Positions 5,377-63,180 of a stretch of DNA of 64,000 nt are shown here, one piece after another (the stretch's first letter is position 1; each line of letters opens with the position of its first letter). This stretch comes from Rhodococcus sp. Z13. Lineage in GTDB: Bacteria > Actinomycetota > Actinomycetes > Mycobacteriales > Mycobacteriaceae. The position numbers were made by a program, and so were the translations under genes. Under the pieces are notes generated by a model. It did not search any database. It was not told where the DNA came from and saw only the letters and a program-made list of their open reading frames with translations. The stretch is taken from positions 3,032,668 to 3,096,667 of the forward strand of contig NZ_CP107551.1 of NCBI RefSeq assembly GCF_025837095.1, written 5' to 3'.

Positions 5377-5381
5377 GGGCG

Positions 5382-5459
5382 GAGCCGGGCAACCGGCGCA
5401 GTGAGGGTAGGGAGCCGGGCAACCGGCTCGGTGAGGGTAGGGAGCCGGGCAACCGGCTC
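5382..5459. repeat. Three 30-bp repeats, each a GNRA-like hairpin, between convergent genes
   Basis: Copies of GAGCCGGGCAACCGGCTC lie at 5412-5429 and 5442-5459, with a slightly changed copy at 5382-5398, spaced by 30 bp and joined by GGTGAGGGTAGG. Each is a perfect 7-bp stem (GAGCCGG/CCGGCTC) closed by GCAA. The end of the AarF gene (5351-5362, GGTTGCCCGGCT) is the reverse complement of the core, so a fourth arm exists inside coding sequence. The array sits between the AarF stop and the whiB7 stop and probably acts as a bidirectional transcription end or RNA-stabilising structure. Confidence 0.85.
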
Positions 5460-5781
5460 ACACGCAGACGAGTTCTCTGCGCGGTTCGGGTACGGGATTC
5501 TTGCGTGGGCGTCCCCGCGGGCGTTTGCGGGCGACGACCACACCGCGGTCGATGATCTCGCCACCCCAGACACCCCAGGGTTCCTCCCGTTCGAGTGCGG
5601 CGGCAAGACAGCGGGCGCGGATCGGGCATCCCGCGCAGAGCGCTTTGGCGTGTTCCAGGTCGGCCGGGGCCTCGGCGAACCACAGGTCGGGATCGTTCTC
5701 GTGGCACGGCAGGGCCGCAGTGCGGAACGGGGTGTCCGTCTCGATCCGGTCCGACGGTCTCGACAGGGTTTGGGTCGGCAC
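5458..5781 (-). CDS. whiB7: WhiB7-type iron-sulfur transcription factor
   Basis: A 107-residue Wbl protein with four cluster cysteines, C26, C49, C52 and C58 (CxxC and CxxxxxC spacing), the Wbl turn GVWGGE and a C-terminal AT-hook RGRPRK (about 89-94). The AT-hook is the mark of the WhiB7 subclass, which with the principal sigma factor activates intrinsic antibiotic resistance genes. The neighbouring AarF gene, uvrD2 and mrx1 match the mycobacterial whiB7 locus. Expression appears to be controlled by a long leader with a uORF and a terminator-like hairpin (listed separately) and by a promoter with an AT-rich element suitable for autoactivation. ATG at 5781 is followed by typical residues; the reading frame is intact. 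Confidence 0.96.
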   Translation of the reverse strand: MPTQTLSRPSDRIETDTPFRTAALPCHENDPDLWFAEAPADLEHAKALCAGCPIRARCLAAALEREEPWGVWGGEIIDRGVVVARKRPRGRPRKNPVPEPRRELVCV

Positions 5782-43082: not shown

Positions 43083-43361
43083 TCAGGCGGTGGGATCGGT
43101 GTCGGTGATCACGACCGTGCGGCGGATCTCGAGCATCAGCCGCTCGCGCAGCCCCTCCGGGGCGTGTTCCCCGCGGCACTTGCGGCCGATCAGCGCCTTG
43201 ATCTTCTCCTCGATCCCGTAGGCCTCGAGGCACGACCCGCAGTCGTCGAGATGTCGCTGCAGGCGCTCGCGGGAGGTCTCGTCGCACTCGGAGTCGAGAA
43301 GCAGGTACACGTCCGCGATGACCGCCGAGCAGTCGAGTCGATCGAAGTCCGGTTCGCTCAC
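43083..43361 (-). CDS. rshA: Zinc-associated anti-sigma factor RshA
   Basis: A 92-residue protein with the ZAS motif HLDDCGSC (HxxxCxxC; about 37-44), preceded by a further Cys (SECDE). This arrangement senses thiol oxidation by releasing zinc and forming a disulfide, freeing SigH. GTG 43361 overlaps the sigH stop (GTGA), tying the stoichiometry of the pair. The C-terminal part is basic then acidic ([11 protein letters not shown]). Confidence 0.93.
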
Positions 43362-43996
43362 TGCGGTGCTCCCTTTCCGCTGTCGGTGGAGTCCGATGGC
43401 CCGGCCGCCGCGTCGACCGCTCCGTTCCGGTTGAATCCCCGCTCGCGCGCCACGTCGGCGAGCAGGCCACGCAGTTGCTTCCGCCCCCGGTGCAACCTCG
43501 ACATCACGGTGCCGATCGGCGTCCCCATGATCTCGGCGATCTCCTTGTAGGGGAAGCCCTCGACGTCGGCGTAGTACACCGCCATGCGGAACTCCTCGGG
43601 GAGTTCCTGCAGGGCGGCCTTGATGTCGTCGTCGGGCAGGGCGTCGAGCGCCTCGACCTCGGCCGACCGCAGACCGGTCGACGTGTGCTCGGCGGTGGCC
43701 GCGAGCTGCCAGTCGGTGATCTCGTCGGTCGGGTACTGCGCGGGCTGACGCTGCTTCTTCCGGTACGAGTTGATGTAGGTGTTGGTGAGGATCCGGTACA
43801 GCCAGGCCTTGAGGTTGGTGCCCTCCCGGAACGAGCGGAAGGCGGAGAACGCCTTGATGTACGTCTCCTGCACGAGATCCTCGGCGTCGGAGGGATTGCG
43901 TGTCATCCGCAGCGCCGCGCCGTAGAGCTGGTCGAGCAGGGGCAGCGCATCCCGCTCGAACCGCTCCGTCAGTTCTTCCACAGACTCCTCGACCAC
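43358..43996 (-). CDS. sigH: RNA polymerase sigma factor SigH (ECF12-type)
   Basis: From GTG 43996 the protein has 212 residues. Region 2 contains [20 protein letters not shown] and [23 protein letters not shown]; region 4 contains [20 protein letters not shown] and [16 protein letters not shown]. Its sequence is close to Mtb SigH, the oxidative and heat stress sigma. The ribosome binding site GAAGGG precedes the chosen GTG; GTG 43969-region codons are lesser options. The reading frame continues open upstream, and a second GTG at 44206 with GGAG before it would add 70 residues with four 9-residue repeats (see findings). It controls its own promoter by inference. Confidence 0.94.
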
Positions 43997-44061
43997 ACCG
44001 ATCCCTTCATCGACGTCTGCCGAGAAGGCTACCGGTAGCTCCGGGCCGGAAGCCGGGAGAC

Positions 44062-44168
44062 GGCGGTCCCCGTCGGGACCGGTGGGGCGGCGGTCCCCGT
44101 CGGGACCGGTGGGGCGGCGGTCCCCGTCGGGACCGGTGGGGCGGCGGTCCCCGTCGGGACCGGTGGGA
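44062..44168 (-). repeat. Four 27-bp repeats in the sigH leader, each a hairpin and nine codons
   Basis: The core CGGTCCCCGTCGGGACCGG starts at 44064, 44091, 44118 and 44145, exactly 27 bp apart. Each core is an inverted repeat (CGGTCCC, loop CGTC, GGGACCG). Read in the sigH frame on the minus strand, each unit codes RRPTGPDGD. The array ends 66 bp before the conventional sigH start. The units are nearly identical, so it has probably expanded recently or is maintained. Confidence 0.93.
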
Positions 44169-44256
44169 CGCCGGACGGGGTCCGGGGCGAGACACGTCAC
44201 TGCCACGAATTCTCCGATCGTCGGTCCTCGGGTGGCCGGTGCGCACCCGGAAGGCA

Positions 44257-44283
44257 CAACAACCGGTCGGCGCGGGTTGTTCC
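44257..44283 (-). promoter_or_regulatory. SigH-type promoter upstream of sigH
   Basis: On the minus strand GGGGAAC, whose core GGAAC spans 44283-44279, is followed after 18 bp by GTTG (44260-44257), matching the SigH/SigR consensus GGAAT-n18-GTT. The predicted start, near 44250, leaves a 250-nt leader covering the repeats. The divergent ybaK gene begins 50 bp away. Confidence 0.7.
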
Positions 44284-61339: not shown

Positions 61340-63180
61340 GGGGCGGCTCCTTCGGACGGCGAGTCGGTCGGCCGGTTCGCCGGGGGTGCTGCTTCGTGCG
61401 GGGCTGCGTCGTGGGGCGGGACCGCGCCGTCGGGTGGGACCGCGCCGTCGGGTGGGACCGGGCCGTCGGAAGGTGCGGGAGTGCTCGACGTGTCCTCCAC
61501 ACGCCACCCGCCCACGGCAGGGCCCTCGGGATCGGACGCGGACTCCGGCGGCTTGCCCTGCACCGCCTTCACCGCGCTGGGCACCAGCGGAAGCGGGCTG
61601 CGGCCCACCTTGCGGCCCCGTTCGCGGGGCAGGGTGAGGCGGAAGCTGGCGCCACGGCCTGGTTCGCCCCACGCCTCGAGCTTGCCGTTGTGCAGGTTCG
61701 CGTCCTCGACGCTGATGGCCAGGCCGAGGCCGGTGCCGCCGGAGCGGCGGACCCGGGACGGGTCGGAACGCCAGAACCGGTTGAAGACGAGCTTCTCCTC
61801 GCCGGGGCGCAGGCCGATGCCCTGGTCGCGCACGACGAAGGCCGCGGCGGTGTCGTCGGCACGCAGCCGCAGCAGGATGGGCTTGCCCTCGCCGTGGTCG
61901 ATGGCGTTCGCCAGTAGGTTCCGCAGGATGCGTTCGACGCGGCGCGGATCGACCTCGGCCTCGACGGGTTCGTCGGGCAGGTCGACGATGAGTTCGGTGG
62001 CGGTCTCGCGGGCGAGATGCCGCACGGTCGAGACGGCGGCGCGGGCACACATGCGCAGGTCGAGGCGTTCGGCGGCGAGTTCGGCGACGCCCGCGTCGTG
62101 GCGGGAGATCTCGAGCAGGTCGTTGAGCAGGCTCTCGAACCGGTCGAGTTCGGTGACGAGCAGTTCGGAGGACCGCTTGAGCATCGGGTCGAGGTCGTCG
62201 CTGGCGTCGTGGATGAGGTCGGCGGCCATGCGGACGGTGGTGAGCGGGGTGCGCAGTTCGTGGCTCACATCGGAGGTGAACCGTTTCTGCAGGTTGCCGT
62301 ACTCCTCGAGCTGGGTGATCTGCCGGGACAGGCTCTCGGCCATCTCGTTGAACGACATCGCCAGCCGCGCCATGTCGTCCTCACCGCGGACCGGCATGCG
62401 TTCCTTGAGCCGGCCGTCGGCGAACCGCACGGCGATGCGGGAGGCCGACCGGATCGGCAGCACGACCTGCCGCGCGACGATCATCGAGATCGCGGCGAGC
62501 AGCACGAGCAGCACCACGGCGCCGACGAGGAGGGTGCCGCGGACCAGCGCGAGGGTGCGTTCCTCACCACCGAGCGGGAAGATCAGGTACAACTCGAGGG
62601 TGGAGATGTCGGAGTCGGTGGGGCTGCCGACGATGAGCGCCGGGCCGGTGTAACCCTCCGGATCCGCCACCGTCGCGAACTGGTAGGCGATCTGACCGTT
62701 CTGGACGAAGGCGCGCAGGTTCTGCGGGATCTGGTCGGCGGGACCACTCGCGGTGGGGGCCCGCGGCCCCTCACCGGGCACGATGAGCACGGGATCGAAG
62801 GTGCCGGCGACGCCGGTGTCCTGTCCCCCGTCGCTGCCGCGGTTGGTCAGCGTCGCCGCGGCCCCGTCGAGACGCACCGCGAGCGAGCCGGAATCGTCGG
62901 CACCCGCGAGTTGCGCCTCGACCAGGGCGCGGGAGCGTTCCATCTCCTCGGTCGCGGCGTCGATCTTCACTTCGAGCAGGCGGTCGGTGATCTGACTCGT
63001 GAGCACCACACCGAGGACGAACATGACGATCACCGACAGCGTGAGGGTCGAGGTCACGACCCTCAGCTGCAACGAGCGTCGCCAGGTGTGCGCGATGCGG
63101 CTGCTCACCGATCGCGACCACCTCACCAGCGGCAGCGTTCTGCGTGTGATACGCCGCCGTAGCCGGTAGGTACGGATCAC
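61336..63180 (-). CDS. mtrB: Sensor histidine kinase MtrB
   Basis: A protein of 614 residues, GTG 63180 overlapping the mtrA stop. Membrane helix one ([20 protein letters not shown]), an extracellular domain of about 150 residues, helix two ([19 protein letters not shown]), HAMP, the phosphorylated His in [14 protein letters not shown] (near 310) and ATPase boxes [12 protein letters not shown] and [10 protein letters not shown]. The C-terminal 90 residues are Pro-rich with repeated PPDGAV units and would be in the cytosol. Controls cell wall and division functions with MtrA. Confidence 0.96.

Follow-up and report, generated by a model that had tools for sequence, protein, structure and literature searches.

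A probable two-promoter, two-start arrangement of sigH in Rhodococcus, with a tandem-repeat linker in Rhodococcus sp. Z13

Does the reading frame which stays open upstream of the usual sigH start in Rhodococcus sp. Z13 encode a second, longer form of the sigma factor, and is the tandem repeat within it the essence of this form or a local addition? The window, the whole stretch of 64,000 nucleotides analysed here, contains a sigH-rshA operon on the minus strand, with a sigH orthologue recognised by TIGR02947 (379.2 bits, cut-off 251.55) and an rshA orthologue downstream of it recognised by TIGR03988 (104.2 bits, cut-off 62.5). Read from 5' to 3' the order is SigH-type promoter, GGAG, GTG 44206, the extension with its array, TAGCCT, GAAGGG, GTG 43996, the sigma factor and rshA (Table 1). 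The usual start at GTG 43996 is located 210 nt (70 codons) 3' of GTG 44206. The initial annotation had described a GTG behind GGAG opening 70 in-frame residues before the usual start, four RRPTGPDGD repeats in these residues, and a promoter of the type GGAAC, 18 bp, GTTG upstream, and all three are confirmed by the sequence and the peptide. Its statement that the long start lies just inside the p2 transcript agrees with the positions, as transcription from p2 would start near 44250. Divergent from sigH lies a YbaK-type Cys-tRNA(Pro) deacylase gene (TIGR00011; 44297-44830, plus strand), whose likely start, ATG 44333, is about 50 bp from the -35 element of sigH p2.

Table 1. Features of the sigH-rshA locus (positions in the window).
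Feature	Position	Strand	Remark
p2, SigH-type promoter GGAAC-N18-GTTG	44257..44283	-	GGAAC 44283-44279, 18 nt, GTTG 44260-44257; putatively active
GGAG, ribosome-binding site of long form	44212..44215	-	five nt before GTG 44206
SigH' long reading frame, 282 aa from GTG 44206	43358..44206	-	frame open to stop TGA 43360-43358
Four 27-bp tandem copies (RRPTGPDGD x4) in extension linker	44066..44173	-	Tandem Repeats Finder
TAGCCT, probable -10 element of putative internal promoter p1 for short form	44026..44031	-	conservation
GAAGGG, ribosome-binding site of short form	44003..44008	-	conserved in frame
Short-form SigH, 212 aa from GTG 43996	43358..43996	-	TIGR02947 match starts at long-form residue 71
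rshA, anti-sigma factor	43083..43361	-	TIGR03988

The closest known system is SigR of Streptomyces coelicolor, where SigR' is translated from the SigR-dependent p2 transcript, carries 55 or 58 extra residues, has a half-life of about 10 min and is a Clp substrate, while the stable form is made from p1 (PMC4921905, PMC5472188). An upstream long start, a downstream short start and an adjacent anti-sigma gene are common to both loci, as is, by sequence, a p2 promoter of the type read by the sigma factor itself, and the putative p1 of Rhodococcus would correspond to p1 of S. coelicolor (PMC4921905, PMC5472188). The likeness to SigR' pointed out in the initial annotation (SigH-type promoter, long start, short start and rshA) is supported by the sequence. 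The two differ in the short start, which is GTG in Rhodococcus and GTC in S. coelicolor SigR (PMC5472188), and in the 27-bp array of the Rhodococcus linker. As a positive control seven Streptomyces-like loci were read (L134, L139-L141, and L143-L145, so labelled from their GTC start and sequence). This yielded extensions of 58 residues in four and of 55 residues in one, while one locus had no long start by the simple rule applied and one was left unparsed; six of the seven showed the GTC short start of the published SigR (PMC5472188). N-termini such as MGSTICPSR in this comparison bear a loose likeness to VPVLCPPR, and common descent of the two types of peptide is plausible. SigH of Mycobacterium tuberculosis likewise has two promoters with the upstream one SigH-type (PMC4921905), but its short form starts from ATG (PMC5472188). 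With reference to Yoo 2016, PMC10727445 mentions for both M. tuberculosis and S. coelicolor that SigH/SigR isoforms vary in stability, whereas the part of Yoo 2016 used here (PMC4921905) deals with transcripts rather than isoforms for M. tuberculosis. The mycobacterial loci read here, which are from other species than M. tuberculosis, carry an extension in frame, such as VPTACLERP in L064. Corynebacterium glutamicum shares the sigH-rshA operon (PMC3489674), but its SigH has an ATG start with its own ribosome site (PMC5472188), and the portions of these papers used here describe no comparable extension. Among the matches listed from the open-access literature, judged by title, there was no paper on a Rhodococcus SigH isoform.

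A protein search, made for comparison across genomes, detected sigH in all 18 genomes of the genus, the own one included. The same search of GTDB genomes supplied further sigH loci (the best 80 of 551, with Rhodococcus gordoniae as best match), and another set consisted of the 30 best of 148 genomes. Before sigH, each of these 18 shows GGAACAA...GTTG in an unchanged position, then a GGAG or GAGG-type ribosome site with a long GTG or TTG start, and a frame which is open from there into the sigma core. When one Rhodococcus metagenome-assembled genome is added, 19 non-identical loci result, all with such a ribosome site ahead of the long start, which is GTG in 17 and TTG in two of them. Similar layouts were also seen in Nocardia, Gordonia, 15 of 26 mycobacterial loci and Streptomyces-like genomes. 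The initial annotation had proposed that the repeats form a new extension, evolved independently and giving a self-limiting SigH loop. The array does occur in this genome alone among those searched, and the layout does match that of SigR', but the promoter, the long start and the extension are present without the repeat in the 17 other same-genus genomes, as well as in other genera, and this proposal has become extremely unlikely. Judged by the genomes compared, the extension is the local copy of one carried by related actinobacteria, and only the four repeats are peculiar to this locus. A long SigH isoform would thereby be placed in every genome of the genus examined.

An N-terminal alignment was made from the window and 22 of 32 relatives, ten being left out. 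The peptide of the window is partly altered, with CLAPDP in place of the CPPRP of relatives. The consensus MxVxxxERP is partly built in, since long starts were chosen by a rule favouring a ribosome site and certain first residues. A redox role of the cysteine at residue 5 was considered and rejected; as a serine is found there in 5 of 19 loci, this cysteine is probably non-essential. The length of the extension varies, being long in the close relative L090 and compact in other relatives. In Nocardia mexicana (L045) an unrelated in-frame tandem repeat, resembling SRPHRIPGTLSRA, is found farther upstream of sigH.

An open frame may be there without being used, and one alternative is that the region serves as 5' leader only, its conservation stemming from promoters and ribosome sites. 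Substitution patterns across Rhodococcus, which the initial annotation had named as support if of coding type, speak on both sides. For extension codons 2–8 (18 loci, window excluded) purifying selection is seen in the true frame only, where pN/pS was 0.19; the other two frames gave 1.68 and 121, and the sigma core 0.07. In a second clade (five loci) codons 2–12 gave 0.36 in the true frame against 1.24 and 2.09 in the others. In the window's nearest clade, however, codons 2–21 showed no purifying selection in the true frame (pN/pS 1.38, against 0.30 in frame +1; six sequences with 14 variable columns), and this longer stretch looks unconstrained as protein. Conservation near the short start at the level of the DNA would also fit a mere leader. 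Against it stand the mostly synonymous changes in codons 2–8 throughout the genus, seen in the true frame only, and the lengths: the distance from the long start to TAGCCT takes five values in the 19 non-identical loci (24, 39, 51, 66, and 171 nt), all multiples of three, whereas the distances from the promoter to the long start in the same loci include every residue modulo three. Neither frameshifts nor stops, which the initial annotation had named as speaking against the extension, were found in these length classes or in the 18 open frames of the genus. In a wider set of 124 non-identical loci, obtained by removing four identical ones from 128, a promoter match was present in 109, of which 101 possess a start codon in frame 100 nt or more upstream and 79 show no stop in the sigma frame between the core and the expected transcription start, compared to 8 and 12 in the other frames; the loci compared are kin, and such frame and stop counts do not represent independent events. 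Because of the true-frame pN/pS values, the length classes that keep the frame and the mostly closed other frames, the extension is very probably translated, as far as sequence can tell, and a leader without a translated long frame is unlikely. The linker can be read as a spacer which would have to keep the frame and be otherwise free.

Continuity of the frame from p2 to the sigma core might also mean that the long form is the sole product and the usual short start just a convention of annotation. This is very unlikely in view of GAAGGG-N6-GTG, which together with an upstream TAGCCT at fixed spacing is found in 19 of 19 Rhodococcus loci and fits a second initiation site. The stretch CCGGTAGCCTTC is identical in all 19 non-identical loci and uses GTA, a rare codon which accounts for 2 of 128 valines in sigH cores and, in five gene stretches of the window, for 1 of 138. 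Blocks 44035-44024 and 44008-43994 are invariant across the 19 loci except for one base in one locus, as would be expected of a second promoter, which is probable here, and the ribosome site of the short form; from this near-invariance protein and regulatory signals appear to overlap in the codons of SigH'. In the wider set in-frame GAAGGG occurs in 94 of 124 non-identical loci, including all 19 of Rhodococcus, and in 55 of these 94 TANNNT starts exactly 23 nt upstream of it, with the next commonest distance found in five. The fixed distance makes TANNNT look like a -10 element with a short leader; a clear -35 element was not seen upstream of TAGCCT. The mycobacterial arrangement is different, because GAAGGG is kept there in 26 of 26 loci while TANNNT at the Rhodococcus spacing is found in none of the 26, and because a p2 match with the consensus used is absent within 480 nt of the core in 11 of them (L061, L066, L067, L069, L070, L073, L074, L081, L083, L087, and L088). 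These 11 are among the 15 of 124 loci without a promoter match.

Taken as a whole the locus is likely to be the Rhodococcus version of the SigR/SigR' two-promoter, two-start arrangement, with an expansion of the linker in this species. Basal short SigH would be made from the internal promoter p1 and GAAGGG-GTG. Upon oxidation RshA would be inactivated and SigH would drive p2, the transcript of which would be read from GTG 44206 to give the longer SigH', which would begin with the conserved peptide and continue with a linker that here would have grown in frame by tandem duplication of a 27-bp unit. Both promoters would be active as described, SigH' would be made on stress, and it would be shorter-lived than SigH. 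Three layers which are easily confused can be kept apart in this way: the conserved N-terminal peptide, the DNA elements of the short form situated in the same codons, and the linker, which can gain repeats.

As to the regulon around such a loop, the loose pattern GGAAY-N16-20-GTT is not over chance in the window (seven matches, 5.27 expected), but the stricter GGGAAY-N18/19-GTTG is enriched in the genome, with 37 sites compared to four for a reversed control pattern. Seven of the 37 are copies of one sequence. The sequence GGGAACCGAAACGGCTGCGGCTGCGGTTG has seven exact occurrences in the genome (e.g., L160, L161, and L165) and is probably part of a dispersed repeat. Six of the 37 sites, a non-random sample picked for GGGAACA, were followed. 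Thioredoxin reductase and a DHA2-family transporter are each preceded by one and IMP dehydrogenase has one upstream, while two precede genes with tentative names only and one has no assigned gene. The proteins behind L184, L186, and L188 gave no NCBIfam model match at 1e-20; that of L184 is presumably pirin-like and that of L186 we take to be DsbA-like. In a consensus scan clpB has a SigH-type match about 110–140 nt upstream, and a further Hsp100 gene, L193, has GGAATT-N18-GTT directly 5' of its frame. The same scan detected no GGAA[CT]-N16-20-GTT in the stretches covering the clpP1P2 and clpC loci (L192 is assumed to be ClpC), unlike S. coelicolor, where Clp genes belong to the regulon. Since clpP1P2 and clpC lack such a match, the Streptomyces loop via induced Clp is unsupported here by this promoter scan; Clp produced by other means could still remove SigH'.

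There remains the array itself. Of its 27-bp copies the last three are the same in sequence, whereas two synonymous bases set the first apart from them. Tandem Repeats Finder reports 4.2 copies with 97% matches and a score of 214, the highest of 16 rows for the window. When 151 family genomes were searched with up to three mismatches allowed, the array turned up in no other genome, and two others gave a single three-mismatch match each; this search included 10 of the 18 same-genus genomes, and the other eight were checked for the array at sigH alone. Comparison with the extensions of close relatives places the array between two shared ends, at an RRP which these relatives have once. It looks young, as three units are identical and the first is off by two synonymous bases only, and slippage is its most likely origin, with tolerance explained by a unit length, 27, that is divisible by three. 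On the sequences compared, the best reading is a species-specific expansion of a linker that close relatives also have. A dispersed element was rejected, as the rest of the own genome contains no copies of the array within three mismatches. RNA structure was rejected as well: each unit could form a 7-bp hairpin, yet folding was no better than that of shuffled sequences (z of 0.04 for the region of 255 nt and -0.39 for the array). It is conceivable, though quite improbable, that the tandem unit multiplies an xRP module like the ERP or PRP of the conserved N-terminal peptide, and that the number of copies adjusts either how long SigH' lasts or the ratio of its long to its short form; if true, the array would act on the thiol-stress response as a contingency dial that leaves the frame intact. 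What determines the lifetime of SigH' might be learnt from the natural comparison between species that carry the array and those that lack it. The window also contains tandem arrays at 5381-5460 (30 bp, 2.7 copies) and at 61394-61469 (18 bp, 4.2 copies).
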